Below are positions 33,628 through 56,327 of a stretch of 64,000 bases of DNA, in pieces. The DNA lies in contig NZ_CP092915.1 in NCBI RefSeq assembly GCF_022557175.1, positions 2,170,001-2,234,000 on the forward strand, in the 5' to 3' direction. Position 1 is the first letter of the stretch. The number at the start of each line of letters is the position of its first letter. The translations under genes were made by a program, and so were the position numbers. The notes below the pieces were generated by a model. That model searched no databases, was not told where the DNA came from, and saw nothing but the letters and a program-made list of their open reading frames with translations. The DNA comes from Mycolicibacterium sp. YH-1 (GTDB taxonomy: Bacteria; Actinomycetota; Actinomycetes; Mycobacteriales; Mycobacteriaceae).

Positions 33628-34476
33628 TCATGGTTTGTCGACGAAGATATCCCACATCGGATCGTCGCCACCGCCGTAGCGCGACAGGTCGGTGACCCCG
33701 GCCGCGGTCAGGACATCGGCGTCGATGTAGGTCTGGCCATTGGACTCGGCGGCGGGCCGGGTCAGGATGTCGACCGCGGCGTCGGCCATGATGTCGGTGC
33801 TACGCGACCTCTGCACCAGGTCATCGCCTTCGGCCAGGTTGGTCACGGCTGATGTCGCGATGTAGGTCTGCGGCCACAGGCAGCTGAATCCGATGGCTGT
33901 TCCGTCTTCCGCGGAGCCGTACTCCGCGGCCCATCCCAGCGACAGCAGGGTCATGCCGTACTTGGACACGGTGTAGGACGGGTGTGCGCCCAGCCAGTGC
34001 GGGTTCATGTTCAGCGGTGGCGCCAGCGTGATCACATGCGCGTCTCTCGACGCGCGCAGGTGCGGCAGCGCTGTCTTGGTGAGCAGGAACGTGCCGCGCA
34101 CGTTGATGTCCATCATCAGGTCGAACTTCTTGGCCGACAGGTGCTCGGTCGGTTCGGTCGAGATGGCGCTGGCGTTGTTCACGACGATGTCGATGCCACC
34201 GAAGTGCGCGACGGCCGCGTCGACCGCGCGTTGCACGTCCTCCTCCCTGCGGACGTCACCGACGACGGCAAGCCCCTTGCCCCCGGCCGCCTCGACGTCG
34301 GCGACCGCGGTGTGCACGGTGCCTGGAAGCCTTGGGTGGGGTTCGGAGGTCTTGGCCAGAAGGACGACGTTGGCGCCGCGCTTGGCGGCGCCAAGGGCTA
34401 TCGCCAGGCCGATGCCACGACTACCGCCGGACACCACCATCGTCCGATCGGCAAGCGAATCTCGCTCGTTTTTCAT
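33628..34476 (-). CDS. Short-chain dehydrogenase (HSDL2-like)
   Basis: 282-residue SDR. The Rossmann motif is SGGSRGIGLAIALGAAKRGA, followed by NNASAIS and a YTVSKYGMTLL catalytic Tyr-Lys pair. The ANVVLLAKTSEPHPRLPGT stretch and the C-terminal half resemble hydroxysteroid dehydrogenase-like protein 2. It is the first gene of a three-gene minus-strand unit with the ligase and small protein, divergent from the mutase. The start at 34476 is uncertain because no clear ribosome site is present. Confidence 0.82.
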   Translation of the reverse strand: MKNERDSLADRTMVVSGGSRGIGLAIALGAAKRGANVVLLAKTSEPHPRLPGTVHTAVADVEAAGGKGLAVVGDVRREEDVQRAVDAAVAHFGGIDIVVNNASAISTEPTEHLSAKKFDLMMDINVRGTFLLTKTALPHLRASRDAHVITLAPPLNMNPHWLGAHPSYTVSKYGMTLLSLGWAAEYGSAEDGTAIGFSCLWPQTYIATSAVTNLAEGDDLVQRSRSTDIMADAAVDILTRPAAESNGQTYIDADVLTAAGVTDLSRYGGGDDPMWDIFVDKP

Positions 34477-34567: not shown

Positions 34568-34690
34568 TTTTTGGGCAAATGTCATGCTCGCACACGGGGC
34601 GTATCGCCTGGCATGCGGGAACGGCACGCGCACCCGCGTGCCTGCTGACGTGCCAATGAATGCCAGGCCTCGGCTGTGTTTCCACTCTGC

Positions 34691-34731: not shown

Positions 34732-36309
34732 ATGAGTGACGTCGTTCAAACCCCGTCGGGCATCCCCCTGGAGCCCACGTACGGACCCGGTGACCGCGTG
34801 GGAGATCCCCCGGCACCCGGCGAGTACCCCTTCACCCGTGGCAACTTCGCGTCCGGCTATCGCGGTAAGACGTGGACATTTCGCCAGTATTCGGGATTCG
34901 GCACCGCTGAGGAGAGCAACCGCCGCTACCGGTACCTGCTGGACCAGGGGGGCACCGGGCTGTCGGTGGCCCTCGATCTGCCGACTCAGTGCGGATACGA
35001 CTCCGATGACGAGGAGTACGGCGAGGAGGTGGGTCGAGTGGGTGTTGCGGTGGACACGCTGGCCGACGCCGAGATCCTGTTCGACGGCATCCCGCTGGAC
35101 AGGATCAGCACCAGCTTCACGATCAACGGCACCGCCGCGATACTGCTGGCGCTCTACGTCGCCGCCGCCGAGAAGTCGGGCGTCTCGCGCGAGAGGCTCA
35201 CCGGCACGATCCAGAACGACATCCTCAAGGAGTACGCCTCACGCGGTACCTGGATCTGGCCGCCCGACCCGTCGCTGCGCCTGATCGCCGACACTATCGA
35301 GTTCTGCGCCGCGGAGGTGCCGCGGTTCAACGCAATCTCGGTGGCGGGTGCGCACTTTCGCGATGCCGGCGCCAACGCCGTGCAGGAGATGGCGTTCACA
35401 CTCGCCGACGGCGTCACCTACTGCGACACCGTCGTCGAGCGCGGCCGGATGTCCATCGACAAGTTCGCGCCGCAGATCTCGTTCTTCTTCTACACCCACG
35501 GTGACTTCTTCGAGGAGATCGCCAAATACCGGGCCGGACGTCGGCGGTGGGCCACCATCGTGCGCGAACGCTACGGCTCGACCAGCGACAAGGCGTCGAT
35601 GTTTCGTTTCGGCTGCGTGTCCGGCGGGGCCTCCCTCTACGCGCCGCAGGCGCAGAACAACCTCGTCCGCGTCGCCTATGAGGCGATGGCCTCGGTACTC
35701 GGCGGCGTGCAGTCGATGTTCACCGCCGCCTGGGACGAGCCGTTCGCGCTGCCCAGCGAGGAGTCGGCGACGCTGGCTCTGCGCACCCAGCAGATCCTGG
35801 CCCTCGAGACCGGCGTCACCAAGGTCGCCGACCCGCTCGGCGGCTCCTACTTCGTCGAGGCGCTCACCGACGCGACAGAGGCCAAGATCATCGAGATTAT
35901 GGACGATCTCGAGAAGCACGGCGGCATGGTTCGGTGCATCGAGGACGGCTATCTGCAGGGCTTGATCGCCGATGAGGCATTCAAGATTCACCAGGAGATC
36001 GAGTCGGGGGAGCGCCCGGTGGTGGGCGTCAACAGGTTCGTCGCAGATGAGCCGCCACCGGACATCGACACCTACGAACTCGACGCCGAGGGGCGCGATC
36101 TTCAACTCAAGCGGCTCGGGAGGGTCAAGGCCGACCGGGACCCGGTCGCGGTCAAGGACGCTCTGGCCGCACTGGCACGTTCAGCGGAGGGCACCGACAA
36201 TCTCATGCACAAGCTCATCGACTGTGCCAACGCCTACTGCACGGTGGGCGAGATGGTCTCCACGCTCAAGGCAGTGTGGGGCGAGTTCCAGCAACCGGTG
36301 GTGTTCTGA
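34732..36309 (+). CDS. Coenzyme-B12-dependent acyl-CoA mutase, large subunit (atypical methylmalonyl-CoA mutase family)
   Basis: 525-residue substrate-binding subunit of a two-part mutase that rearranges the carbon skeleton of an acyl-CoA. Family landmarks: WTFRQYSGFGTAEESN, SVALDLPTQCGYDSD, GTIQNDILKEYASRG and KVADPLGGSYFVE. Tyr53 and Arg171 match Tyr89 and Arg207 of Propionibacterium methylmalonyl-CoA mutase, which hold the substrate carboxylate, and the catalytic His is kept (His208). But Tyr243 of the reference is Ala207 here (AGAHFRDAG), the HxQTSG segment reads GCVSGG (294-299) and SLHTN reads SMFTA. I recognise no characterised class with this set. It overlaps the B12 subunit by one base. 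Confidence 0.88.
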   Translation: MSDVVQTPSGIPLEPTYGPGDRVGDPPAPGEYPFTRGNFASGYRGKTWTFRQYSGFGTAEESNRRYRYLLDQGGTGLSVALDLPTQCGYDSDDEEYGEEVGRVGVAVDTLADAEILFDGIPLDRISTSFTINGTAAILLALYVAAAEKSGVSRERLTGTIQNDILKEYASRGTWIWPPDPSLRLIADTIEFCAAEVPRFNAISVAGAHFRDAGANAVQEMAFTLADGVTYCDTVVERGRMSIDKFAPQISFFFYTHGDFFEEIAKYRAGRRRWATIVRERYGSTSDKASMFRFGCVSGGASLYAPQAQNNLVRVAYEAMASVLGGVQSMFTAAWDEPFALPSEESATLALRTQQILALETGVTKVADPLGGSYFVEALTDATEAKIIEIMDDLEKHGGMVRCIEDGYLQGLIADEAFKIHQEIESGERPVVGVNRFVADEPPPDIDTYELDAEGRDLQLKRLGRVKADRDPVAVKDALAALARSAEGTDNLMHKLIDCANAYCTVGEMVSTLKAVWGEFQQPVVF

Positions 36310-36716
36310 TGGCCACCAGAGTGCTTGTGGCCAAGCCCGGTCTGGACGGACACGACAAGGGCGCCAAAATCGTCGCGCGCACGCTGCGTGATGCGGGATT
36401 CGAGGTCATCTATACCGGAATCAGGCAGCGCATCGAGGACATCGTGTCCATCGCGCTGCAGGAGGACGTTGCGCTGGTGGGGCTTTCGATCCTGTCGGGT
36501 GCGCACGTCGCACTGACCACCCGGACAGTCGACGCGCTGCGCGCCGCCGACGCGGGAGACATCGCCGTCGTCGTTGGTGGCACCATCCCCGAGTCCGACG
36601 TGCAGAAGCTGCTCGATGCCGGTGCCGCTGCGGTGTTCCCGACCGGCACCCCGCTCGACACGCTCGTCCGCGACGTGCGGGCCTTGACCGAGTCAGCGGG
36701 GGAGGCGGGCGCATGA
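36309..36716 (+). CDS. Coenzyme-B12-binding small subunit of the acyl-CoA mutase
   Basis: 135-residue Rossmann-like cobalamin domain. The DxHxxG motif that ligates cobalt is D13-G-H15-D-K-G18, and SILSGAH and GGTIPESD complete the corrin site. Its ATG overlaps the large subunit stop in TGATG, giving tight coupling. The separate short subunit is like isobutyryl- and hydroxyisobutyryl-CoA mutases rather than the single long chain of methylmalonyl-CoA mutase. Confidence 0.92.
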   Translation: MATRVLVAKPGLDGHDKGAKIVARTLRDAGFEVIYTGIRQRIEDIVSIALQEDVALVGLSILSGAHVALTTRTVDALRAADAGDIAVVVGGTIPESDVQKLLDAGAAAVFPTGTPLDTLVRDVRALTESAGEAGA

Positions 36717-37669
36717 GACTGGGTGTGATGATCGGGGCCGAGCGCGGCGATATGGCCCGCAAGGTCAAGAAACTCATCGCCGATATCGAGTGGGCCGATT
36801 CGGCGGGCCTGGACACCGCGTGGATGCCACAGGTGCCCGACGACTTCGACCTGCTGACCATGGTGGCGCTGATGGCGGGGCACAGCACTCGGATCGAGCT
36901 CGGTACCGCCGTGGTGCCGCTGCAGGCACAGCACCCGATCGCGTTGGCGCGCCAGGCATTGTCGGTGCACGCTATGTCGGGAGGCCGCCTGGCCCTCGGC
37001 GTCGGCCCCTCGCATCACTGGATCATTCGCGACATGCTCGGCCTGCCCTATGATAAGCCAGCCGCCTACACCCGCGACTACCTGCAGGTGCTCAACGCCG
37101 CGACCGCGGGGCCCGGCCCCGTGGATGTCGAGAACGACAACTTCACGGTGCACAACCCGACAGCTCTCGGCGCCGAGACGCCGATGCCGGTGCTGGTGGC
37201 CGCGCTGGGCCCGGTGATGCTGCAGATCGCCGGCGAGCACGCCGACGGGACGTCGCTGTGGATGGCGGACGAGAAGGCCATCGGCGAGCACATCGCGCCG
37301 AAGATCAACAAGGCCGCTGCGGAGGCGGGTAAGCCCGCGCCACGCATTGTCGCCGGTATCCCGGTCACGCTGTGCGCCAACTCCGAGATCGACGCCGCCA
37401 AGGACCGGGCCAACCGGATTCTGGCCGAGGCCGAGACATCGCCCAACTACCAGAAGCTGCTCGACCGGGGCGAGGCTCGCAACGTCGGCGACCTGTGCGC
37501 CGCGGGGGATGAGGAGTCGATCCTGGCGCGCTTCAAGTCGTTCGCCGACGCCGGTGTGACGGACCTGTCCGTGCGCCTGTTGCCCATCGGCGACACCCGA
37601 GACGAACTCATCGCGTCGAAGTACCGCACGCGTGAGGTGATCGCGGAGTTGGCCAAGGCGGTCAGGTGA
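36713..37669 (+). CDS. LLM-class F420-dependent oxidoreductase
   Basis: 318-residue TIM-barrel enzyme of the luciferase-like family. MRLGVMIGAERGDMARKVKK is the first strand and helix, ALSVHAMSGGRLALGVGPSHHW is the conserved middle and DGTSLWMADEKAIGEHIAPKI the later phosphate-binding part. It resembles the actinobacterial group of predicted F420-dependent oxidoreductases. ATGA overlap with the B12 subunit places it in the mutase operon, so it probably oxidises or reduces a pathway intermediate. Confidence 0.85.
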   Translation: MRLGVMIGAERGDMARKVKKLIADIEWADSAGLDTAWMPQVPDDFDLLTMVALMAGHSTRIELGTAVVPLQAQHPIALARQALSVHAMSGGRLALGVGPSHHWIIRDMLGLPYDKPAAYTRDYLQVLNAATAGPGPVDVENDNFTVHNPTALGAETPMPVLVAALGPVMLQIAGEHADGTSLWMADEKAIGEHIAPKINKAAAEAGKPAPRIVAGIPVTLCANSEIDAAKDRANRILAEAETSPNYQKLLDRGEARNVGDLCAAGDEESILARFKSFADAGVTDLSVRLLPIGDTRDELIASKYRTREVIAELAKAVR

Positions 37670-38739
37670 CGCCGACCGGCGGACCGCTCGAGGGCATCCG
37701 TGTCCTCGAGGTAGGCGTGATGCTCGCAGGCCCCTACGCCACGATGATGTTGGCTGACCTCGGCGCCGAGGTGATCAAGATCGAGCCACCCGGTGGCGAG
37801 ATATCCCGTCAGGTGAGCGACAGCTACTTCGCCAGCCTCAATCGCAACAAGCGCAGCGTGTGCCTCGACCTCACCTCCGATGAGGGTCGACGCAGGCTCG
37901 GCGAGTTGGTCGCGAAATCCCATGCGCTGCTGGTGAACATGAAACCGTCGGTGATCCGCAAGCTCGGCCTCACCTATGACGCGCTATCACAGTTCAACCC
38001 GAGGATCGTCTGTGTGGCGCTGACCGGGTACGGCCTCGAGGGTGGCGACGACCCGGCATTCGACTACGTGGTGCAGGCCGCCACCGGAGTCGCGGCGATG
38101 ACCGGTGACCCCGACGGGCCGCCGACGCTTCCCGGGTATTCGTCGGCGGACAACTCGACGGGACTGACCGCTGCGCTGGGACTGCTCGCACAGGTCGTCT
38201 CGGGCCGCGGCGGGCAGATCGACGTGTCGTTGCGCGATGTGATGCTCTCGCAATTGAACTACCGCGCGGCGGCCTATCTGAACGACGGCGCGGCACCACA
38301 GCGCCACCCGTTCGGCGCACACTCGTACTACGTTCCAGCGCAACTGTTTCCGACCTCGGACGGTTACCTCGCACTCTTCATCACCCACGACGGTTTCTGG
38401 CGTTCGTTCGCGGGGGAGGCGGGTATCGACGGCTTCGAGAAGATGGCTGAGCGCGCCGCGCGCCGCGACGAGGTGCTCGATCTGGTGACCGCGACACTGG
38501 CCAAGGACACCGCACGCAACTGGGAGGCGCGGCTACGCCCGCTCGGAATACCCGCCGCCGCGGTGCGCTCGCTGCCCGAGGCCCTCGAGGCGACGCCGGA
38601 CGTGATCGTGACCGCGGGGGACAAGCGTCTGGTCCGCGGGTCGATCAGGGTCGTTGGCCACGAGGCCGAGTATCGCCCGGCGCCGGCGCTGGACGAGTAC
38701 TCAGCTCAGCCTGACTCGGCTCAGCCTCACTCGTCGTAG
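37666..38739 (+). CDS. CaiB/BaiF family III CoA transferase
   Basis: 357-residue enzyme that moves CoA between acids without an ATP cost. LEGIRVLEVGVMLAGPYATMMLADLGAEVIKIEPP is the family opening and the catalytic Asp is in LPGYSSADNSTGLTAALG near residue 160. The start GTG overlaps the LLM stop by four bases. It may activate the acid substrate using a CoA ester product of the same pathway. Its 3' end overlaps the convergent ferredoxin gene by 13 bases. Confidence 0.88.
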   Translation: MTPTGGPLEGIRVLEVGVMLAGPYATMMLADLGAEVIKIEPPGGEISRQVSDSYFASLNRNKRSVCLDLTSDEGRRRLGELVAKSHALLVNMKPSVIRKLGLTYDALSQFNPRIVCVALTGYGLEGGDDPAFDYVVQAATGVAAMTGDPDGPPTLPGYSSADNSTGLTAALGLLAQVVSGRGGQIDVSLRDVMLSQLNYRAAAYLNDGAAPQRHPFGAHSYYVPAQLFPTSDGYLALFITHDGFWRSFAGEAGIDGFEKMAERAARRDEVLDLVTATLAKDTARNWEARLRPLGIPAAAVRSLPEALEATPDVIVTAGDKRLVRGSIRVVGHEAEYRPAPALDEYSAQPDSAQPHSS

Positions 38740-39035
38740 CTGAACTTGACGCACGAGGTGTCCGGCACGGCTTGGCATGTCAGCACATAGCCGTCGGCGA
38801 CCTCGTCATCGTCGAGGGCGTCATTCACCCGCATCGTCGCGCTGCCCTCGGTGATCTTGGCCATGCATGTGCCGCAGTTGCCCGCCTCGCAGGAGAACGG
38901 TGGGCCCATGCCGGCACGCCTCGCGGACTCGAGGAGTGTCTCGCCCTCGACCATCTTGACGGAGACAGTCTTGCGGTCGAGGACGATCGTCACCTCGTCG
39001 GCGTCCACATCGGACGGCGCGGGGTCTGCGCTCAT
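38727..39035 (-). CDS. Plant-type 2Fe-2S ferredoxin
   Basis: 102-residue electron carrier. The cluster ligands are in CEAGNCGTC (three Cys) plus a distal Cys in VLTCQAVP. The start at 39035 has an AGGAG site eight bases upstream; upstream starts at 39053 and 39089 run towards the operator. It lies between the mutase operon and the ligase operon and probably serves an oxygenase or reductase of the cluster; no obvious oxygenase partner is adjacent. Confidence 0.85.
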   Translation of the reverse strand: MSADPAPSDVDADEVTIVLDRKTVSVKMVEGETLLESARRAGMGPPFSCEAGNCGTCMAKITEGSATMRVNDALDDDEVADGYVLTCQAVPDTSCVKFSYDE

Positions 39036-39185: not shown

Positions 39186-40595
39186 GTGACTGAGCCGGTC
39201 CTCCTTGCGTTCGAGGACCGGGAGTACACCCGATCCGAGCTTGATGCGCTGGTCAGCGGCATGGCGACGCTCCTCGAGGAACGTGGTGTGCGTTCCGGTG
39301 ATCGGGTGGCGCTGATGTCGTCGAACCGACCCGAGTTCGTCGTCGCCCTGCAGGCCATCTGGAGTCTCGGGGCCGCCGTCGTGCTGCTCAGCACCGCGTG
39401 GAGGCGCGCCGAAGTTGACCACGCGCTGGCGCTCACGACACCGTCGCACGCAATCGGAGACAACCCGATGCTGGCCGAGGCAATGCCGATGCTCGACCTC
39501 GACGCGCCCATCACCCCGAGCCCCCGTCGGTTCGCGCCGCCGAGTCTCGACGCCGACGCGCTGTTCGTCTTCAGCTCCGGCACCACCGGCATGCCCAAGG
39601 CCGTCCGGCACACGCATCGGGCGTTCGCGACGGCCGTCGCCCACTGGCGCTCAGCCCTTGGGCTCTCGGCAGACGACCGGATGCAGATCATGACGCCGCC
39701 GTCGCACATCCTCGGTCTGCTCAACATCGCGACAGCGTTCGAGGCCGGCGCATGGCTGCGGCTGCATCGCCGATTCGACGTCGATGCGATGCTGCGCCAC
39801 ATCCAGACCGACCGCATCACGATCGAGATGGCCGTCGCGCCCATCGCGCTGGCGCTCGCCGCGCACCCGAGTCTGGAGAGCTACGACCTGTCGTCGCTGC
39901 GGTATGTCATGTGGTGCGCGACGCCGGTGACCAAGAGCGTGGCCGAGGAGGTCACCGCCCGCGTCGGCATCAACTGGGTGACTGCCTACGGCGCAAGCGA
40001 ACTGCCGGTCATCGCCTGCAACTCCCTGGTGGACGGGCGGCTGGACACCGTCGGCCGCGCGGTGCCGGGTGTGACGATCCGAGTGGTGTCCCTGGAGACC
40101 GGCGAGCCGGTTCCCGTGGACGAGACCGGTGAGATCCAGGTGCGTTCCGCGTCGGTGATGGCGGGCTACCTGCCCGACGACGCGACGGCCGACGCCTTCG
40201 CCGGCCCGGTCGGTGACGGGTGGTACCGCACCGGTGACGTCGGCCATCTGGACGCCGACGGATGGTTGCGGATCACCGACAGGTCCAAGGAGATGATCAA
40301 GGTGCGGGGCTTTCAGGTGGCGCCCGCCGAGATCGAGGCCGTCCTGCACGGACATCCGGCGGTCGCCGACTGCGCCGTGTTCGGGATCCCCGACGCCGCC
40401 AACGGCGAGGCCGTCGTCGCCGCCGTATCACGTTGCCAGGTAGTGGAATCTGATGAGCTGACCGCGCTGGTGGCCGACCGTCTGGCTTCCTACAAGCGAC
40501 CCAGCCGGGTCGTGTTCGTCGAGGAGATTCCCCGACTTCCATCCGGAAAGGTATTGCGCCGAGTGCTCAAGGAGCGGCTGTGGACGTCCGACTGA
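39186..40595 (+). CDS. Acyl-CoA synthetase (FadD-type AMP-forming ligase)
   Basis: 469-residue ligase, shorter than most FadD proteins. The P-loop is FSSGTTGMPKAVRHTH near residue 135, YGASELP is the adenine loop, then GDGWYRTGDVGHLDADG, the hinge DRSKEMIKVRGFQVAPAEIE and the lysine in LPSGKVLRRVLKE at the end. GTG 39186 has a GGAGGG site. It opens an operon with two acyl-CoA dehydrogenase subunits and a crotonase, overlapping the next gene by 16 bases. Confidence 0.88.
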   Translation: MTEPVLLAFEDREYTRSELDALVSGMATLLEERGVRSGDRVALMSSNRPEFVVALQAIWSLGAAVVLLSTAWRRAEVDHALALTTPSHAIGDNPMLAEAMPMLDLDAPITPSPRRFAPPSLDADALFVFSSGTTGMPKAVRHTHRAFATAVAHWRSALGLSADDRMQIMTPPSHILGLLNIATAFEAGAWLRLHRRFDVDAMLRHIQTDRITIEMAVAPIALALAAHPSLESYDLSSLRYVMWCATPVTKSVAEEVTARVGINWVTAYGASELPVIACNSLVDGRLDTVGRAVPGVTIRVVSLETGEPVPVDETGEIQVRSASVMAGYLPDDATADAFAGPVGDGWYRTGDVGHLDADGWLRITDRSKEMIKVRGFQVAPAEIEAVLHGHPAVADCAVFGIPDAANGEAVVAAVSRCQVVESDELTALVADRLASYKRPSRVVFVEEIPRLPSGKVLRRVLKERLWTSD

Positions 40596-41395
40596 CATCC
40601 GAACAACGACAACTACGCGATGCGGCCGCCAAACTGGCCGACGATCTGGGGCCGGGTTCGGTCGCTGATCTCGATGATGACGGCCGCATCGCCCGGCTCG
40701 AGAAGAACGTCGCGGCCACTGGCTGGCGCGCGCTGCGCACCGACGAGGCGTCCGGTGTCGAGGTGGCCATCGTCGCCGAGGAGTTCGCCCGCGGCCTGGT
40801 CGACGTGGCGTTCCTCGGGCCGGTCCTGGCCGACGACCTGAGCCACCGGCTGGGTCGCGAGGTGTCGCCGCCGGCATCCGCACCGAGGTCGGTCGACCTG
40901 ACGAGAAGCCTTGTGGGCGTAGTCGAATCGCCCGACGCCCTCGCCGAACTGTCCGATGAGGATGCCGGCCGCTGGTACGCGCTGGCCCTCACGGCGACCA
41001 CGGCGGACCTGGTGGGTGCCGCGCGCGGCACGCTGGCACTCGCGACCGAGTACGCCAAGGTGCGCGAGCAGTACGGTGCGGCGATCGGCTCGTACCAGGC
41101 CGTGCGGCACATGCTGGCCGAGGGGCAGGCACTCATCGAGGGCTCCATCAGCGTGCTACGCCACGCCGCATGGGCTGTCGACGAACTACCCGCCGTCGAG
41201 GCCATCGAGGCTGCCCGCATCGCCAAGATCTACAGCGCCCGGGCCGCGCTCACCGTGTGCGAGACGTCGATTCAGGTGCACGGCGGAATCGGCAACACCT
41301 GGGACTGCCTCGCGCACGTCTACCTGCGTCGAGTTCTGAGCGCCACCGAGTTGTGGCCAGTGAAGTTGGAGGAGTTGACCGTTGGACTTTCGTGA
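40580..41395 (+). CDS. Acyl-CoA dehydrogenase, small-type subunit
   Basis: 271-residue, short acyl-CoA dehydrogenase fold. It carries REQYGAAIGSYQAVRHMLAEG near residue 155 and QVHGGIGNTWD near residue 230 but no SEPxAGSD loop. GTG start inside the ligase gene and a 14-base overlap with the following large subunit. This size and pairing recall the FadE28/FadE29 heteromers of cholesterol side-chain degradation. Confidence 0.83.
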   Translation: MDVRLTSEQRQLRDAAAKLADDLGPGSVADLDDDGRIARLEKNVAATGWRALRTDEASGVEVAIVAEEFARGLVDVAFLGPVLADDLSHRLGREVSPPASAPRSVDLTRSLVGVVESPDALAELSDEDAGRWYALALTATTADLVGAARGTLALATEYAKVREQYGAAIGSYQAVRHMLAEGQALIEGSISVLRHAAWAVDELPAVEAIEAARIAKIYSARAALTVCETSIQVHGGIGNTWDCLAHVYLRRVLSATELWPVKLEELTVGLS

Positions 41396-42479
41396 CTCTC
41401 CGGAGGAGGCCGCGTTCCGGGACAGGTTGCGCGGCTGGCTGAAGGAACAGAAGGGCAAGTTCCCGACGTCCGGCGACGAGTACTGGGCCAAGGCGGGCGA
41501 GTGGCACGTGGCGCTGTACGAGGCCGGGTTCTTCGGCACGTCCTGGCCCAAGGCGTATGGCGGACAGGACCTGCCGCCGGTATACGACGTCATCGTCGAC
41601 GAGGAGATCGCGAAGGCCGGCGCCCCTGCCCGGCCGGGCCTCGGCTACCTCGTCGTCGGCTTGAGCCACCACGGCAGTGAGGAACTGCGGCAACGGTTTC
41701 TGCCCGGCATGATCAAGGGCACCGAACGCTGGTGTCAGGGCTTCAGCGAACCCGGTGCGGGCTCGGACCTGGCGTCGCTGACGACCACCGCCACTCGCGA
41801 CGGCGACGACTACGTGATTCACGGACACAAGGTCTGGACCAGCTACTCCGATGTCGCCGACTGGTGTCTGGTGCTGGCGCGCACCGACAAGGACGCGCCG
41901 AAGCACAAGGGCATCTCGGCATTCATCGTCTCCATGCATCAACCCGGAATCGAGCAGCGGCCGCTGCAGATGATCAGCGGTGTCACCAAGGAATTCGGTC
42001 AGGTTCTCTTCGATGGCGCCCGGGTGTCCGCCGAGAACATGGTGGGTGAGCCGGGCGATGGGTGGAAGCTGGCGATGACCGTCGTCGGCCACGAGCGCGA
42101 GCCGTCCACCCTGGGATTCTCGGCACGTTACGGAAAGCTGGTGCGTCAGTTGGCCTCCCGTGTGGACGGTGCCGAGGGGCGTGTGCCCGACGAGCTGTCC
42201 TGGGCGTGGGTTCAGACCGAGATGCTGCGCCTGCACGTGCGACGGCGACTGTCCGAACAGCTGGACGGCATCACACACGGGCCGAACGGTTCGTTGGACA
42301 AGCTCCTGATGACCTGGACCGAGCAGGCCGTGGGTCATGCGGCGCTGGCGACCGTCGGAACCACCGACGAGGAGTTGTTCGGCGCCTACCTCTACAGCCG
42401 GGCCCAGAGCGTGATGGGTGGCACATCGCAGATTCAGAAGAACATCATCGCGCAGCGAATTCTCGGATTGGGAGTGTGA
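41382..42479 (+). CDS. Acyl-CoA dehydrogenase, large-type subunit
   Basis: 365-residue acyl-CoA dehydrogenase with the flavin loop CQGFSEPGAGSDLASLTTTA near residue 115 and MGGTSQIQKNIIAQRILGLG at the C-terminus. The start is TTG 41382, overlapping the small subunit. It lacks the RxQYG signature supplied by its partner. The pair should introduce an alpha-beta double bond into the acyl-CoA made by the upstream ligase. Confidence 0.85.
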   Translation: MDFRDSPEEAAFRDRLRGWLKEQKGKFPTSGDEYWAKAGEWHVALYEAGFFGTSWPKAYGGQDLPPVYDVIVDEEIAKAGAPARPGLGYLVVGLSHHGSEELRQRFLPGMIKGTERWCQGFSEPGAGSDLASLTTTATRDGDDYVIHGHKVWTSYSDVADWCLVLARTDKDAPKHKGISAFIVSMHQPGIEQRPLQMISGVTKEFGQVLFDGARVSAENMVGEPGDGWKLAMTVVGHEREPSTLGFSARYGKLVRQLASRVDGAEGRVPDELSWAWVQTEMLRLHVRRRLSEQLDGITHGPNGSLDKLLMTWTEQAVGHAALATVGTTDEELFGAYLYSRAQSVMGGTSQIQKNIIAQRILGLGV

Positions 42480-42543
42480 TGAGCGCTCGCGCCGCGACGA
42501 GCCCTCGGGCGAGGAGCAATGGATGAAGAACGAAGGGAACAGC

Positions 42544-43308
42544 ATGTACGACATGCCAGACGAAATCGACGTCCAGGCCGACGGCGGACTGCGCATCATC
42601 ACGCTCAACCGACCCGATGAGCTCAATGCGGTCAATGACTCGCTGCACGTGGGGCTGGCCAAGATCTGGGAAGCGCTCAACGAGGATGCCGGTGCGCGAG
42701 CGGCGGTGATTACCGGTGCGGGCCGCGCCTTCTCGGCCGGTGGCGACTTCAACTACCTCGACGAGCTGCGCAATGACGAGGCCCTGCGCCAGAAGACCAT
42801 CAAGCACGGCCGCGATCTCGTCATCGGCATGGTGCGCTGCCGCGTCCCCGTTGTCGCGGCGGTCAACGGGCCTGCCGTGGGCCTGGGCTGCAGCCTGGCC
42901 GCATTGAGCGACATCGTCTACATGGCCGAGACCGCGTTCTTCGCCGACCCGCACGTGTCGATCGGTCTGGTGGCCGCCGACGGTGGGCCACTGGTGTGGC
43001 CGTCGCAGATAAGCCTGTTGCAGGCCAAGGAGTTCGCCTTCACCGGTGTGCGGATCAAGGCCGCGCGAGCGCTCGAACTGGGTATGGCCAACCACGTGGT
43101 GGCTGACCCGCTGACCGAGGCGATTGCCTGCGCGAAGAAGATCATGGAGTTGCCGCAGCAGGCGCTCGAGGCCACCAAGCGGCTGATGAACATCCAGCTG
43201 GAGAAGTCGGTGCTGGCGTCGTTGGACTACGCCAACCTGTCCGAGTACGTGTCCTTCGGGACCGCCGACTTCAACCGGATCGTCGACGGTCTGATCGCCA
43301 AGAACTAG
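42544..43308 (+). CDS. Enoyl-CoA hydratase/isomerase family protein
   Basis: 254-residue crotonase. The oxyanion hole is formed by FSAGGD (residues 63-68) and GPAVGLGCSLA (109-119). The two glutamates of classical hydratases are replaced: Ser117 and His137 (ADPHVSIGLVAADGG). Many mycobacterial crotonases with this ADPHVxxGL pattern exist, so another acid/base such as Asp146 may act; hydratase, isomerase or hydrolase activity are all possible. I use ATG 42544 with an AAGGGA site; ATG 42523 with GAGGAG is an alternative. It ends the ligase operon. Confidence 0.83.
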   Translation: MYDMPDEIDVQADGGLRIITLNRPDELNAVNDSLHVGLAKIWEALNEDAGARAAVITGAGRAFSAGGDFNYLDELRNDEALRQKTIKHGRDLVIGMVRCRVPVVAAVNGPAVGLGCSLAALSDIVYMAETAFFADPHVSIGLVAADGGPLVWPSQISLLQAKEFAFTGVRIKAARALELGMANHVVADPLTEAIACAKKIMELPQQALEATKRLMNIQLEKSVLASLDYANLSEYVSFGTADFNRIVDGLIAKN

Positions 43309-44970: not shown

Positions 44971-45951
44971 ATGCCCGAGGTCGCCCCCGACAGCGCCGAT
45001 AGGCTGACTCGCACGATGACCATCGAAGATCTCCTCGAGAAGGCGCGCAACGGGTCGACCCGTGCGGTCGGCAGACTGCTGAGCCTCGTCGAGAGTCCGC
45101 GCCGCGATGAGGTGCTTGCCGTCATCGGCACGAACACCGCACGTGTCATCGGTGTGACGGGACCGCCCGGTGCCGGAAAGTCGACGACCATCGCCGTACT
45201 GGTGGCGGCCTACCGGCAGCGGGACCTACGCGTCGCGGTGCTCGCCGTGGACCCGTCGTCGCCGTACAGCGGGGGAGCGCTCCTGGGTGACCGAATCCGG
45301 ATGGCCGCCCATATCAACGACGATGACGTGCTGATTCGATCCGTTGCCGCACGCGGACATCTCGGCGGTCTGGCCGCTGCGGTGCCCGCGGCCATCCGTC
45401 TGCTCGCCGAACTTGCCTACGATGTGGTGCTTTTGGAGACCGTCGGGGTCGGGCAGTCCGAGATCGAGATCTCCGCTGTCGCTGATCCCACGGTCGTCAT
45501 CCTCAACCCCGGTGCGGGAGACGCGGTTCAGGCGGCGAAGGCAGGGCTGCTCGAGGTCGCCGACATCGTCGCCATCAACAAGGCCGACCGCGAGGGCGCC
45601 GATCAGACGGTGCGCGACCTGCACGCGGAGACCGATGCGCCCATTCTCAAGATCATCGCAGCGCGCAACGAGGGCATCGAGGAACTCGTCGCGGTGATCG
45701 ATGACTATCACCGCGACGACAGTCCGGGGCGCCGCGCGGCGCGCGCCCGCGCGCAGATCCTGTCGCTGGCCCAGAGTGCGCTGCGCGCGCACGGCGGGTT
45801 GGACGCGCTCGCCGATTCAGTGGCAACCGGCGACCTCGACATCTACGCGGCCACCGCGGCCCTACTCGATCAGGCTGGGTTCGGCACCGGCTCGGTGGCT
45901 TCCGAACAGGCGCGGGGCCAGAATGAGAATGACGTTTCCGCTTTGCAGTAA
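44971..45951 (+). CDS. MeaB/ArgK-type GTPase chaperone of B12-dependent mutase
   Basis: 326-residue G3E GTPase that loads and protects the cobalamin cofactor of acyl-CoA mutases. Walker A is GPPGAGKST at residues 64-72; VDPSSPYSGGALLGDRIRM, ETVGVGQSEIEI and the NKAD base motif follow. The family opening RNGSTRAVGRLLSLVE is present. It lies 8 kb from the mutase genes but shares the operator motif, which ties it to that enzyme. ATG 44971 has a GAGGAG site. Confidence 0.92.
   Translation: MPEVAPDSADRLTRTMTIEDLLEKARNGSTRAVGRLLSLVESPRRDEVLAVIGTNTARVIGVTGPPGAGKSTTIAVLVAAYRQRDLRVAVLAVDPSSPYSGGALLGDRIRMAAHINDDDVLIRSVAARGHLGGLAAAVPAAIRLLAELAYDVVLLETVGVGQSEIEISAVADPTVVILNPGAGDAVQAAKAGLLEVADIVAINKADREGADQTVRDLHAETDAPILKIIAARNEGIEELVAVIDDYHRDDSPGRRAARARAQILSLAQSALRAHGGLDALADSVATGDLDIYAATAALLDQAGFGTGSVASEQARGQNENDVSALQ
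45925..45939. promoter_or_regulatory. Cluster operator motif, copy 5 (GAGAATGACGTTTCC)
   Basis: Copy of the motif in the last codons of the MeaB gene, 75 bases before the DUF35 gene. A second inverted pair AATCGT/ACGATT lies just downstream (45951-45967). Together they suggest a promoter for the DUF35-thiolase unit. Confidence 0.45.
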
Positions 45952-51087: not shown

Positions 51088-51966
51088 ATGGCTGAGTCCC
51101 CAGTGTTCGAGAGCGTATGGAGCGACCTCCAGGGCGTCGCGTTCTCGCAGGGTTATCTCGACGCGGGTGGCGTCCGCACGCGGTATCTGCACGCCGGCGA
51201 CGAGACCAAGCCGACCCTGGTGCTGTTGCACGGGTCCGGCGGTCACGCGGAGGCCTACGTCCGCAACCTGGCGTCCCACGCCGAGCACTTCTCGACGTGG
51301 TCGATCGACATGTTGGGGCACGGTTACACCGACAAGCCCGGCCATCCGCTCGAGATCGCGCATTACGTCGACCACCTGCTCGCGGTGTTCGACGCGATCG
51401 GTGCCAAGCGTGTGCACCTGTCGGGCGAGTCGCTGGGTGGCTGGGTGGCGGCCCGCGCCGCATCCGACCATCCCGACCGCATCTACCGCCTGGTGCTCAA
51501 CACCGCAGGCGGGTCACAGGCCGACCCCGAGGTGATGAAGCGCATCATCACGCTGTCGATGGCCGCCGCGGAGAACCCGTCGTGGGACACCGTCCAGGCA
51601 CGCATCAAGTGGCTTATGGCGGATAAGACCAAGGACTACGACGATATCGTCGCGAGCAGGCAGCGCGTGTACCGCCAGCCGGGTTTCATCTCGGCGATGA
51701 GCGACATCATGGCGCTGCAGGATCCCGTGATCCGGGCTCGAAATCTACTCGGTCCCAAGGAGTACGGCGCGATCACCGCACCGACGCTGGTGCTGTGGAC
51801 CAGTGACGATCCCACCGCCGACGTCAGCGAGGGTCATCGCATTGCCACCATGATTCCCGGTGCTCGGTTCGAGGTGATGCCCGACTGCGGTCATTGGCCA
51901 CAGTACGAGGACGCGAAGACGTTCAACCGTCTGCACATCGACTTCCTGCTGGGCACGCCGCAGTGA
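51088..51966 (+). CDS. Alpha/beta hydrolase, MhpC-like meta-cleavage product hydrolase
   Basis: 292-residue C-C bond hydrolase candidate. [17 protein letters not shown] is the oxyanion-hole strand, Ser is in [15 protein letters not shown], Asp in [11 protein letters not shown] and His in [11 protein letters not shown]. MhpC enzymes cleave the ring-fission product of 2,3-dihydroxyphenylpropionate to 2-hydroxypentadienoate and succinate. Here it precedes the MhpA and MhpB relatives, which supports that role. The ATG at 51088 has a GGAAGGG site. GTGA overlap with the next gene. Confidence 0.85.
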
Positions 51967-53660
51967 GCGGGACCGCGAACCAGGTGGACGTGCTCATTGT
52001 CGGGGCCGGGCCGGTGGGTCTGACACTGGCGAACATCCTTGGCCAGCAGGGGGTCGTCACCCGTGTCGTCGACGAGCGGGACAGTCTCATCGACTACCCG
52101 CGTGGTGTCGGCCTGGACGACGAGGCGCTGCGGACGTTTCAGTCCATCGGCCTGGTCGAGCGCATTCTGCCCCACACAGTGCCGAACCAGATCCTGCGCT
52201 TCTTCGACGGCAACCGCAGGCTGCTCGCCGAGATGGCGCCTCCCGATGCACGTTTCGGGTGGCCCAAGCGCAATGGCTTCGTTCAGCCGATGGTCGACGC
52301 CGAACTGCTTCGCGGTCTTGAGCGCTTCGACTGCGTCGAGGTGTCGTGGGACGCGCGCATGGAGTCACTCACAGAGACCGCCGACGGCGTGACTGTCGAG
52401 TTGGCCGGCGCTCCCGCGGTGACTGCCCGCTACGTGGTCGGCTGCGACGGCGGACGAAGTGCGACCCGAAGCCTGATGGGTGTCTCGTTCGAGGGCACCA
52501 CCTCGCCGACGCGCTGGTTGGTCATCGACCTGGCGACCGACCCGCTGGGACACCCCAACAGCGAGGTCGGCGCGGATCCGGCGCGGCCCTACGCCTCGAT
52601 TTCGATCGCGCACGGAATCCGGCGCTTCGAGTTCATGATTCACGCGACCGAGACCGACGAGCAGGTGGAGGAGCCGGAGTTCATCGAGCGGATGCTGGCG
52701 CCGTTCGTGCCGCACCCGGACCGGGTCGACGTGATCCGCCACCGGGTCTACACCCACCACTCGCGCATCGCAGGTGCCTTCCGGCGTGGCCGCACGTTCC
52801 TGGCCGGCGACGCCGCGCACTTGATGCCGGTGTGGCAGGGGCAGGGCTACAACAGCGGCATCCGCGACGCGACGAACCTGGGCTGGAAGCTCGCCGCGGT
52901 GGTCACGGGGCAGGCCGACGACGCGCTGCTGGACACCTACGACGCGGAACGTCGCAAACACGCGCGCGCAATGATCGACCTGTCGACGCTGGTGGGCCGC
53001 GTCATCTCGCCGACGAACGCACGGGTTGCGTCATTGCGCGACGGCGTCATCCGGGCCGCGTCCGTGGTGCCGACGTTGAAGCGCTACATCCTGGAGATGC
53101 GGTTCAAGCCGATGCCGCGCTATGAGCAGGGTGCCATCGCACATGTTGGTCCGCGCTCGAAGACGTCGCCCACCGGCACGTTGTTCATCCAGCCGAGAGT
53201 CGACACCCGCGACGCACAGAATCTGTTGCTCGACGACGTGATCGGTTCCGGCTTCACGGTTCTCAGCTGGAACAACGACCCGCGCAAACTGCTCGGAGAC
53301 CTCGCCTTCGCGCGCTGGAAGGCCCTGGGCGCGACGTTCGTCGCGGTGCGCCCGCTGACCCAGCTGCACTGGACCGGCCAGGACGACCCCGACGTCGTCA
53401 TCGTCGGTGACTGCACCGGCGCCCTCAAGGCCTGGTTCGACGCACACGCCGAATCGGTGTTGTTCCTGCGCCCCGACCGGTGCATCGCAGGCGCCTGTAT
53501 CGCTCAACTCGCTTCCGAGTTGAGCGCGTCATTGTTCGAGGTCCTCTGTCTGAACAAGGGAGGCAATGAAACCCATGATTCCCATGAGCGCGATCGCGCT
53601 GTGCTGCATGTCGCACAGCCCGCTGCTGAATCTTCCGGGACCGTCACCGGAGCTCCTTGA
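51963..53660 (+). CDS. FAD monooxygenase, MhpA-like 3-(3-hydroxyphenyl)propionate hydroxylase
   Basis: 565-residue class A flavin hydroxylase that would put a second hydroxyl next to a phenol. [20 protein letters not shown] binds [16 protein letters not shown] is the DG motif, [21 protein letters not shown] the second flavin motif. The C-terminal thioredoxin-like part follows. The start GTG overlaps the hydrolase stop. The frame runs 95 bases into mhpB, giving a tail of about 35 residues rich in His and Ser that looks unlike a normal MhpA end; a stop in another frame (53552-53554) sits just before mhpB, so an indel may have lengthened it. Confidence 0.86.
53502..53527. repeat. 11-bp perfect hairpin at the mhpA/mhpB junction
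   Basis: CGCTCAACTCG and its exact complement CGAGTTGAGCG enclose a CTTC loop. It lies in the last codons of the hydroxylase gene, about 40 bases before the mhpB start. In mRNA it could slow translation, protect a processed end or act as an attenuator. Confidence 0.7.
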
Positions 53661-54525
53661 GGACGTCGACTCTGCGTTGGCGGGTGCGCGGGACTTCGTG
53701 CGCGACTTCGATCCGGAACTCGTCGTGATCTTCTCGCCGGATCACTACAACGGCTTCTTCTACCGACTGATGCCACCGTTCTGCGTCGGCACCGCGGCCA
53801 CCGGTGTGGGTGACTACGGCACGCACGCGGGTCCACTGAGTGTGCCCGCCGATATCGCGACCGCCTGCGCGGAGGCCCTGTGGGAGGCGGGCGTCGATGT
53901 GGCGATCTCGTCGAGCATGGAGGTCGACCACGGCACGGTCCAGCCGCTTGAGACGTTGTTCGGTGACGCGGCGTCTGTGCCCGTGCTCCCGATCTTCATC
54001 AACTCGGTGGCCACGCCGCTGGGCCCCGTCAAGCGGGCGCGGGCACTCGGTGCTGCCGTCGGGGACTTTCTGGGCACTCTCGGCAAGCGGGTTCTGGTGG
54101 TGGGATCCGGTGGCCTATCACATGATCCGCCCGTACCCACACTGGCCACCGCGCCACCGGCCGCGCTCGGACGCATTGTGCACGGTGAGCCGATGTCGCC
54201 CGAACAGCGGGCAGCCAGACAGAGCGCGGTGATATCCGCCGCACACGACTTCGCCCACGGAGAGAGCCCGTTGCAACCGCTGAACCCCGATTGGGACCAC
54301 GCTCTTCTCGAACTCCTGGACACCAACCGGGTCGCGGACGTCGACGGGTGGTCCAACGCGCAGATCGCCGCCGAGGCCGGTAACTCCGCCCACGAGGTGC
54401 GCACATGGATCGCGGCGTACGCGGCCATGGCAGCGCAGGGGGACTACGACACGGTTCAGCGCTACTACCGGGCCGCGCCCGAGCTGATCGCCGGCTTCGC
54501 CGTCCGCACGGCGGTGGCGCGATGA
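53566..54525 (+). CDS. mhpB: Extradiol dioxygenase, MhpB-like 2,3-dihydroxyphenylpropionate 1,2-dioxygenase
   Basis: 319-residue class III (LigB-type) ring-cleavage dioxygenase using non-haem Fe(II). It tracks E. coli MhpB along its length: CMSHSPLLN with a His ligand, [57 protein letters not shown]. It opens a catechol ring next to one hydroxyl. The start may be 53566, 53575 or 53581; the GGGAGG site is two bases from the first, so I keep 53566 with reserve. The MhpD, MhpE and MhpF functions are not in the window. Confidence 0.92.
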
Positions 54526-56327
54526 CGGGTACCGAGGCGGTGTTCGACCACGAGGCCCCCTTCGATCACGAGGTCGACGTCCTGGTGGTGGGCTCCGGTG
54601 GCGGCGGCATGACGGCCGCATTGGCCGCCGACGAGGCGGGCCTGAGCACGCTCGTCGTCGAGAAGTCACCGCAGTTCGGCGGTTCCACCGCACTGTCCGG
54701 CGGCGGCATCTGGGTACCCGGCGCACCGTCGCAGCGGCGTGCGGGTTATCGCCCCGACCCGGACGCCACCTTCGACTACCTCAAGCGCATCACCGACGGA
54801 CTGGTCAGCGATGCCCGCCTGCGGACGTACGTCGACGCCGCTCCGGAGATGATGGAGTTCCTCGAGAGGTCCAGCTCGTGGTTCGAATTCGTCTGGAAGC
54901 CGGGCTACGCCGACTACTACCCGGAGCTGCCCGGCGGCTCGGAGCGCGGCAGCACGATCAACGTCCCCGAGATCGACCTGCGCAAGCTGGGACCCGAGGA
55001 AGCCGACCTGCTGACCCCGTTGGCGCTGGCGCCCAGGGGAATCTGGTTCGCGCCCAAGGATCTGCGGCTCTTCTACCAGGTGCGGCAGAACTGGCGCGGC
55101 AAGACCGTGCTGCTCAAGCTCATCTGGCGGATGGTCCGCGCGCACGTGTTCGGGGACCGGATGGCCGCCATCGGACAGTCACTGATGGCCCGCATGCGGC
55201 TCGCGCTGAAGGACCACGGCATTCCGCTGTGGCTGAGCGCGCCGATGACCGAGCTCATCACCGACGTCGACGGCAACGTGACGGGCGCCGTCGTGGAACG
55301 CGACGGAAAGTCGCTGCGGGTCCTGGCGCGGCGCGGCGTGATCGTGGCGGCAGGCGGCTTCGACCACGATATGGAGTGGCGCAGGGAGCACCTCCCGGAG
55401 CTGAAGAAGGACTGGAGCTTCGGCAATCCAGCGGCGATGGGGGAGGGCATCCGCGCCGCCGAGAAGGTGGGCGCCGCAACCGACCTGCTCGACGAGGCAT
55501 GGTGGTTCCCTGCGATGTGCTGGCCCGACGGGCGGCTGCAGTTCATGCTCAACGAGCGCATGATGCCCTCGCAGTTCGTCGTCAACGGCGACGGTAAGCG
55601 GTTCATCAACGAGGCCGCGCCGTACATGGACTTCGCCCACGCCATGCTGGACGGTGAGCGCTCCGGTGTCACCCACATACCGTGTTGGCTGATCACCGAC
55701 ATCCATTCGTTCCACCGCTACGTGGTCGGCGGGCATCTCCCGCTCCCGAAGATCCCCTTCGCTCCCGTCCCGACGGGATGGAAGGTCCCACAGGCCTGGC
55801 TGGACTCCGGGATCGTCAAGGAGGGCGCCAGCTTCGAGGAGCTGGCCGTCCAGATCGGTGTTCCCGCAGCGAGCCTGCGCCAGACTGCCGAACGGTTCAA
55901 CGAGCTGGCCAGAAAGGGCCACGACGACGACTTCAATCGCGGCGACAGCGCCTATGACAACTACTACGGCGATCCGACGCTGCCCAACCCCAATCTGCAC
56001 CCGCTCGGCAAGCCGCCGTATTACGCGTTTGAGATCATCCTGGGTGATCTGGGTACGTCCGGGGGCCTGCGCACCGACGAGTTCGCCCGCGTGCTGCGTG
56101 AGGACGACTCGGTGATCGACGGGTTGTATGCGACCGGAAACGCAACCGCGGCCGTGATGGGTCGCAGCTACGCCGGCGCCGGTGCCACCATCGGTCCCGC
56201 GATGACGTTCGGCTACGTGGCGGCCAGACATATCGCCGCCGCGGGAGCCGACCACACCTCAAGCCCCACAACGGATACCCATCCCACTACCGGCACCAGC
56301 CCGACACCTATCGGAGGTACTAAATGA
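54522..56327 (+). CDS. Second FAD-dependent oxidoreductase, 3-ketosteroid dehydrogenase-like
   Basis: 601-residue flavoprotein of the KstD/fumarate reductase family. [23 protein letters not shown] binds [24 protein letters not shown] follows and [26 protein letters not shown] closes the site. It has longer inserts than the enzyme at 48632 and a Thr/Pro-rich tail of about 30 residues. It overlaps mhpB by four bases, so it belongs to the ring-cleavage operon. A role in dehydrogenating an alicyclic ketone towards a phenol is likely. Confidence 0.84.

Follow-up and report, generated by a model that had tools for sequence, protein, structure and literature searches.

Re-specified AdoCbl-dependent acyl-CoA mutases, such as ethylmalonyl-CoA mutase (ECM, MeaA) and 2-hydroxyisobutyryl-CoA mutase (HCM), have earlier revealed carbon-skeleton steps that had been overlooked. 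The substrate of ECM carries one methyl more than that of methylmalonyl-CoA mutase (MCM). In Escherichia coli, scpABC and argK convert succinate to propionyl-CoA, one operon encoding the mutase ScpA, the MeaB-type protein ArgK, the decarboxylase ScpB and the CoA transferase ScpC.

Two other systems were compared by description. According to an excerpt of PMC8360864, the phenylsuccinyl-CoA transferase IaaL of the indoleacetate pathway of Aromatoleum aromaticum acts with the mutase IaaGH, and the operon includes a decarboxylating acyl-CoA dehydrogenase, IaaF. In an excerpt of PMC5719088, a hexylmalonyl-CoA/pentylsuccinyl-CoA mutase is proposed for the biosynthesis of matlystatin (MatB/MatQ) and actinonin (ActD).

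The locus considered here lies in a stretch of 64,000 nucleotides of the genome of Mycolicibacterium sp. YH-1, called the window when referred to as a whole. It resembles the E. coli operon in its set of functions and the Aromatoleum pathway in joining a CoA transferase to a mutase, the substrate of that pathway being of the phenylsuccinyl-CoA type, but it has a crotonase as partner where the latter has IaaF (excerpt of PMC8360864). Its mutase, MutLS, shares with MatB/MatQ and ActD the division into a large and a small cobalamin subunit and the large substituent proposed, alkyl in their case; these are, however, biosynthetic, have Ccr in the cluster and are described as belonging to the HCM subclass (excerpt of PMC5719088).

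The Mutase Pair and Its Active-Site Residues

The large subunit, MutL (34732..36309, + strand, 525 amino acids), matches PF01642 over its full length with 640 bits. An alternative in-frame ATG occurs at 34660, and most of the homologues listed have 525 amino acids. The small subunit, MutS (36309..36716, + strand), is a B12-binding domain with its cobalamin motif DxHxxG intact as DGHDKG, four other small subunits aligned having DGHDxG. With PF01642 and the cobalamin motif both present, the pair belongs to the AdoCbl acyl-CoA mutase family. The genome (7.27 Mb, one contig) contains two further PF01642 genes, adjacent to each other and 1.5 Mb from MutL, which are taken as its ordinary MCM pair.

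In the alignment, MutL keeps on the carboxylate side Tyr53 (34888..34890) and Arg171 (35242..35244), which we take to be Y89 and R207 in P. shermanii MCM numbering. We likewise assume that positions 243, 247, 328, 330, 363, 364 and 366 of that enzyme are MutL 207, 211, 294, 296, 329, 330 and 332. Compared to E. coli ScpA, which has Y, H, E, H, Q, L, H and N, MutL shows A207, H208, D211, G294, V296, M329, F330 and A332. The main changes are in three places of the same strand: Ala207-His208 (35350..35355; Y243A, with H244 kept), GCVSGG at 294-299 (35611..35628; H328G and Q330V) and SMFTA at 328-332 (35713..35727; L363M, H364F and N366A). Y89, Q197, R207, H244 and E370 (P. shermanii numbering) are retained. 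A sequence-only reading of the window had already pointed to the conserved Tyr53 and Arg171 and to these three changed segments, and the translation and a scripted check of positions bear it out. It had also not expected the enzyme to be of the isobutyryl type (Phe/Gln) or of the 2-hydroxyisobutyryl type (Ile), which agrees with the Tyr/Arg pair of MutL.

The constancy of these residues was examined in 241 proteins: the query, the best 120 of its 7963 homologues and the best 120 of 6341 relatives of the Sulfitobacter homologue. Ala207, His208, Gly294 and Val296 occur in 241/241, Phe330 in 240/241, and Ala or Cys at 332 in all of them, with Tyr53, Gln161, Arg171 and Glu336 retained just as uniformly. 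Since Ala207, Gly294 and Val296 are invariant in this set, a sequencing error or a pseudogene is ruled out as their origin. The new pocket residues (A, G, V, F, and A or C) are all non-polar, which argues against a polar substituent on the putative substrate. The Phe that replaces His at 330 brings more bulk, not more space.

The predicted structure of MutL has a mean pLDDT of 75.9, with low values at 299-309 and 332-353. Its fold matches those of HCM and MCM, and the top PDB match, both by sequence and by fold, is the HCM entry 4r3u. The changed residues sit in, or just past, the barrel strands of this model, the key loops of which are of low confidence.

Comparison with the Described Mutase Classes

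At the columns of the MCM residues Tyr243, His328, Gln330, His364 and Asn366, MutL has A, G, V, F and A, while E. coli ScpA, the ordinary MCM of the window genome and another actinobacterial MCM (genome G143) have the normal residues. The pair Phe/Gln at columns 53 and 171, which marks isobutyryl-CoA mutases and IcmF (reference, Ideonella, L040), does not occur in MutL. As the HCM reference the mutase of Methylibium petroleiphilum PM1 (L036) was used, which is presumably HCM. The text on HCM in an excerpt of PMC7176365 is consistent with that role. HCM resembles MutLS in its two-subunit layout with MeaB, but it has Ile/Gln at 53/171, so that the Ile marking this class at column 53 is absent from MutL, and it retains Tyr, His, Gln, His and Asn at the columns changed in MutL.

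The most telling comparison is with ECM, like MutL an AdoCbl acyl-CoA mutase with the Tyr/Arg carboxylate pair, Gly at column 294 (position 328 of P. shermanii MCM) and replacements at columns 330 and 332. Unlike MutL, the three ECM-type references, two of which have a Ccr gene beside them (TIGR01751 above cut-off) in support of their identity, are single chains of 668-682 amino acids with a fused B12 domain; they retain Tyr207, Glu211 and Gln296, with Gln at 330 and Pro at 332. Where ECM has Gln330 and Pro366 in the numbering of P. shermanii MCM, MutL has Val and Ala, and its B12 domain is the separate MutS subunit. The position opened in ECM (294) is thus open in the signature class too, where two further large side chains (207 and 296) are gone, and this combination supports a substituent larger than that of ECM.

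The ECM comparison also limits what can be said of novelty. The changed columns had been called near-invariant, which holds for the MCM, HCM and IcmF references but only in part for ECM, with its Gly294, Gln330 and Pro332. Of the claim that the active site is unlike those of the described classes, what remains is the full combination, absent from the aligned MCM, ECM, HCM and IcmF; Gly294 is shared with ECM, and IaaGH and MatB/ActD are set apart by their descriptions only. The related suggestion of a bulkier dicarboxylic acyl-CoA gains from ECM as regards the larger substituent, and the usual neighbour genes would fit a dicarboxylic substrate, but the idea that every change is unheard of is weakened by the Gly294 of ECM.

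Distribution of the Signature

The signature proteins form one clade, with a support of 100/99 in two trees built from 57 and 34 chosen rows. The clade has an actinobacterial branch, represented by 121 proteins including the query (83-100% identity), and a proteobacterial one, represented by the 120 relatives of the Sulfitobacter homologue (54-59% identity to the query). Its hosts are many soil and marine bacteria of two phyla.

From at least 593 confirmed genome stretches, 80 named loci were kept, and the signature was present in 22 of them: Mycobacteriaceae, Actinomadura, Amycolatopsis, Catenulispora, an Acidimicrobiia MAG, three gammaproteobacteria and a Burkholderiaceae MAG. In the remaining 58 loci, with 48-55% identity, one sees the usual Tyr-His, His-x-Gln and Leu-His-x-Asn. 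The residue table of named loci starts at L034, those below being tabulated separately, and the residue tables comprise tblastn alignments above a minimum length of 300-400 residues. Among 396 genomes drawn across the phylum, 12 gave scores of at least 955 bits and the next match 726 bits, none being listed between; the signature was absent from the 18 next-scoring loci fetched from this sample.

Concerning the relationship to ECM, a grouping of ECM with the signature clade was neither established nor rejected (p-AU 0.621), and in an earlier tree with long branches one ECM adjoins the clade. The Gly294 that both have may be either inherited or convergent. Among the titles and abstract beginnings listed from an open-licence library, none pointed to the signature clade, and the existing names of its members, where given, are methylmalonyl-CoA mutase or acyl-CoA mutase only.

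Gene Neighbourhood in the Window and in Actinobacteria

MutL, MutS and a CaiB-type gene occur together in 18/18 actinobacterial loci (L042-L059). In the window, CaiB (37666..38739, + strand) is a family III CoA-transferase with relatives of the dicarboxylate type; against known dicarboxylate transferases it scores below cut-off. An Asp of this protein aligns with an Asp of 10uh and is retained in six CaiB proteins; we take it to be the catalytic Asp of family III CoA-transferases. Between MutS and CaiB lies an F420-type LLM oxidoreductase gene (36713..37669, + strand; TIGR03564 above cut-off), which is found in this position in 16 of the 18 loci. It was considered as a core member of the cassette and rejected: it is absent beside the module in Amycolatopsis L053 and Acidimicrobiia L058 and is kept in a genome without the module (G660, see below), so it probably lies outside the core.

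A MeaB-type GTPase chaperone is encoded at 44971..45951 (+ strand; PF03308, 227.6 bits). Its TIGR00750 score, 232 bits, falls short of the cut-off (240.75), so that automatic annotation may miss the gene. The remaining neighbours belong to a wider, catabolic region: an SDR divergent from MutL (33628..34476, - strand), a 2Fe-2S ferredoxin (38727..39032, - strand), and an AMP ligase, a pair of acyl-CoA dehydrogenases and a crotonase, ECHa (39186..43308, + strand). ECHa itself (42538-43308) lacks both glutamates of hydratases, having Ser and His. A close relative of ECHa with a solved structure (3rrv chain) is named only enoyl-CoA hydratase/isomerase.

Further along the window (51894-56327), genes of the MhpA and MhpB types score above their curated cut-offs, and after them comes a ketosteroid-dehydrogenase-like flavoprotein; as far as gene similarity goes, this suggests that the region degrades ring compounds.

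Operons in Proteobacteria

In proteobacteria, the genes are gathered in the order crotonase, MutL, MutS, CaiB, GTPase, on plasmids of Sulfitobacter dubius, Marinobacter M3C, Paraburkholderia largidicola and Diaphorobacter HDW4B, and also in Billgrantia pellis. The GTPase matches MeaB, though in Marinobacter and Paraburkholderia its sole annotation is 'hypothetical protein'. Carrier genes of the TRAP or tricarboxylate type are directly 3' of the operon in Sulfitobacter, Paraburkholderia and Diaphorobacter, that is, in three of the five loci with context; in Marinobacter and Billgrantia they are some kb off and on the opposite strand. On three of the four plasmids, the crotonase has a regulator of the IclR type next to it, which in Paraburkholderia is KdgR.

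CaiB was present in 7/9 proteobacterial signature loci. It was not found on two gammaproteobacterial MAG contigs (L061 and L063, of 9.2 and 5.6 kb), which contain crotonase, MutL, MutS and MeaB, the last directly after MutS; CaiB may thus be dispensable there or encoded elsewhere. No CaiB match was seen in the sequence stretches examined of the 58 named loci that lack the signature, the flanks of which differ. Pseudosulfitobacter (L037), with a more distant mutase, has a 34% CaiB 7 kb away.

The Unlinked Crotonase and Its Co-Occurrence with the Mutase

In Actinomadura, a crotonase 40% identical to that of the Marinobacter operon lies 8 kb from the mutase. The window genome has its orthologue at C1:2323232-2323936, 118 kb from MutL start to start, with 71% identity to the Actinomadura protein; the next best crotonase shows 38%. 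Of the 201 genomes in the window's family, 35 have the mutase (E ≤ 1e-200) and 35 have the crotonase (E ≤ 1e-60), the two sets being identical; these counts are of related genomes, not independent of each other, and both genes lie within one broad region. The distance between them was 2.8 to 167 kb in the 22 of these genomes that carry the two on a single contig, a set that leaves aside G116, where the pair spans contig ends, and 12 genomes with the genes on two contigs.

The CaiB gene follows the same pattern. Within 24 chosen genomes of the 201, an orthologue (≥72% identity) was found in 16/16 mutase-positive and 0/8 mutase-negative ones, G552, G619 and G660 among the latter, the best match in the negatives being 43%. 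ECHa and the amidohydrolase beside the crotonase were rejected as strict partners: ECHa, which also has neither hydratase glutamate, is present in 38/201 genomes, the 35 with the mutase plus G552, G619 and G660, and the amidohydrolase is wider again (44/201). Mutase, crotonase and CaiB orthologue are jointly absent from G552, G619 and G660. In G660 (C1:6340000-6359000, L171) the SDR, LLM, ferredoxin, ligase, dehydrogenase and ECHa genes keep their order but MutL, MutS and CaiB are absent, the LLM gene staying although its two usual neighbours are gone. G552, G619 and G660 belong to two genera (g288 and g2) in which mutase-positive genomes occur as well, a distribution suggesting that the module was jointly gained or lost on at least two separate occasions.

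The identity of the two 35-genome sets, together with the joint absence, is the best evidence that transferase, mutase and crotonase act together, and it lies beyond the coordinates covered by the sequence-only reading. As a separate observation, another crotonase gene directly follows ECHa in G619 (L170:9904-10575) and in G552 (L169:8071-8871); for the one of G619, the best match among the queries is E. coli ScpB, with 28% identity.

Possible Activity of the Partner Crotonase

The two catalytic glutamates of enoyl-CoA hydratases are 20 residues apart (144 and 164 in the rat enzyme). In 17/17 partner crotonases read, which come from the fetched loci and not from all 35 family genomes, the first Glu is kept, within GGGAE, and the second is replaced by Gln. 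E. coli ScpB, annotated as methylmalonyl-CoA decarboxylase, likewise keeps the first Glu and lacks the second. An ordinary hydratase activity is therefore unlikely for the partner crotonase, judging from these residues. The conserved Glu of the ethylmalonyl-CoA decarboxylase ECHDC1 is also in a GGGAE motif, as quoted in an excerpt of PMC6717113; the motif, present in all 17 crotonases, is short and makes a weak test.

It is plausible that the partner crotonase is a decarboxylase, although the missing second Glu, which disfavours a hydratase, is no proof of decarboxylation. The crotonases are 21-27% identical to ScpB and do not reach the cut-off of the methylmalonyl-CoA decarboxylase model NF008506 (257 bits; ScpB scores 487). 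For two proteobacterial crotonases, the best NCBIfam match was to another model, with 144 bits, and no decarboxylase appeared among the best 25 of 61-63 matches, mostly enoyl-CoA hydratases and all below cut-off. Similarly, none of the best 60 of 200 PDB matches of the Sulfitobacter crotonase is named decarboxylase. The cassette differs from scpABC in the mutase, since ScpA has the normal MCM pocket, in the crotonase, and in the transferase, ScpC being annotated as propionyl-CoA:succinate CoA transferase, presumably of another family than the CaiB type.

Proposed Function and Alternatives

The sequence and its signature, the clade, the gene order, the co-occurrence and joint absence of the genes and the missing second Glu of the crotonase are observations; what we infer for the cassette concerns all its reactions, their direction and the substrate class. 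CoA-transferase, mutase and decarboxylase would together convert succinates substituted with a group larger than methyl to acyl-CoAs, a reading to which we give an even chance of being correct. The CaiB protein would put CoA on the carboxyl beside the substituent. MutLS, acting as an AdoCbl radical mutase with its cofactor loaded and protected by MeaB, would interconvert a 2-substituted (possibly 2,2-disubstituted) succinyl-CoA and the matching substituted malonyl-CoA by moving the CO-SCoA group onto the neighbouring CH2 carbon, the substituent being larger than the methyl handled by ECM. The crotonase-fold decarboxylase would take CO2 off the malonyl-CoA, pulling the reversible mutase step, and the product, an ordinary acyl-CoA, would go to beta-oxidation. 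A 2-substituted succinate would thus pass through R-CH2-malonyl-CoA to a plain acyl-CoA, following the logic of scpABC with a remodelled pocket. Several proteobacteria would import the acid by the TRAP or tricarboxylate-type carriers, while in Actinobacteria it would probably arise as a side product of the large catabolic region in which the module lies.

As to the identity of the substituent, a tentative candidate, on the whole unlikely but deserving mention, is the conversion of 2,2-dimethylsuccinyl-CoA to isopropylmalonyl-CoA and of this to isovaleryl-CoA, by a new class of mutase for quaternary or branched succinates. The stepwise emptying of the pocket from MCM to ECM (Gly294) and to the signature class (Gly294, Ala207 and Val296) fits such substrates. 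A known reaction in new hosts, and the closest one known, that of an arylsuccinyl-CoA/benzylmalonyl-CoA mutase of the IaaGH kind, would make use of a pocket opened at the thioester end, which suits a large R. IaaL, which we take to be CaiB-like, would be the counterpart of the transferase, and the hosts of the signature mutase named in this analysis, presumably, are mostly aerobes, which speaks against that reaction. IaaL does act with IaaGH on phenylsuccinyl-CoA, but the iaa operon has the dehydrogenase IaaF (excerpt of PMC8360864) where the constant partner here is the crotonase, and we consider this alternative improbable.

A degradative ECM, by which activated methylsuccinate would give ethylmalonyl-CoA and then butyryl-CoA, appears quite improbable to us: Gly294, the lack of rejection of a joint clade (p-AU 0.621) and the GGGAE motif known from the ethylmalonyl-CoA decarboxylase (excerpt of PMC6717113) are in its favour, but ECM itself has Tyr207, Gln296 and Pro332, and the additional changes would be needless for a methyl group. 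Very improbable is a second MCM in a cycle from succinate to propionate, for although the functional gene set equals that of E. coli scpA-argK-scpB-scpC, the window genome already has an MCM pair and the aligned MCM references keep Y, H, Q, H and N at the changed columns. It is also possible, although unlikely, that the cassette performs other chemistry, on a different substituted dicarboxylate (hydroxylated, or substituted on the carboxylate carbon) and with the crotonase as an isomerase or hydrolase; the Gln at the place of the second Glu would fit several crotonase activities, the further genes at the loci vary and CaiB is missing from two of them, while a polar substituent agrees poorly with the non-polar pocket.

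It is worth considering what the proposed conversion of substituted succinates would mean. A whole clade whose signature is constant and whose partners are usually the same stands, in two phyla, behind generic mutase names; the cassette predicts CoA transfer, rearrangement and decarboxylation, and if this is true many genome annotations need correction. MutLS would also be a possible catalyst for substituted malonyl-CoA building blocks. The 2,2-dimethylsuccinyl candidate, if true, would be the dicarboxylate counterpart of pivalyl-CoA mutase and would provide aerobic, B12-dependent breakdown of gem-dimethyl groups that remain from terpenoid-like compounds.

Other Mutases Encountered

Some mutases outside the signature clade were observed in the fetched loci. 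Another two-subunit type, beside MeaB, is encoded on the Diaphorobacter HDW4B plasmid (L156:1313-2995) and on the Pseudosulfitobacter plasmid (L037:7893-9584); it has Leu, Asn, Gln and Asp where MutL has Tyr53, Arg171, Ala207 and Ala332. The one of Diaphorobacter also adjoins genes for an AMP-binding protein and a branched-chain amino-acid-type ABC transporter. Twelve large subunits from other families of the phylum (L136-L141, L144, L147-L150 and L152) have Phe/Gln at 53/171, as in the isobutyryl-CoA type. On the Sphingobium TomTYG43 plasmid (L041:4857-6578), a mutase with B12 subunit and MeaB has Gln in the place of the catalytic His208 and Met, Ser and Pro at 294, 296 and 332; genes for a P450 and for a putative epoxide hydrolase are nearby.
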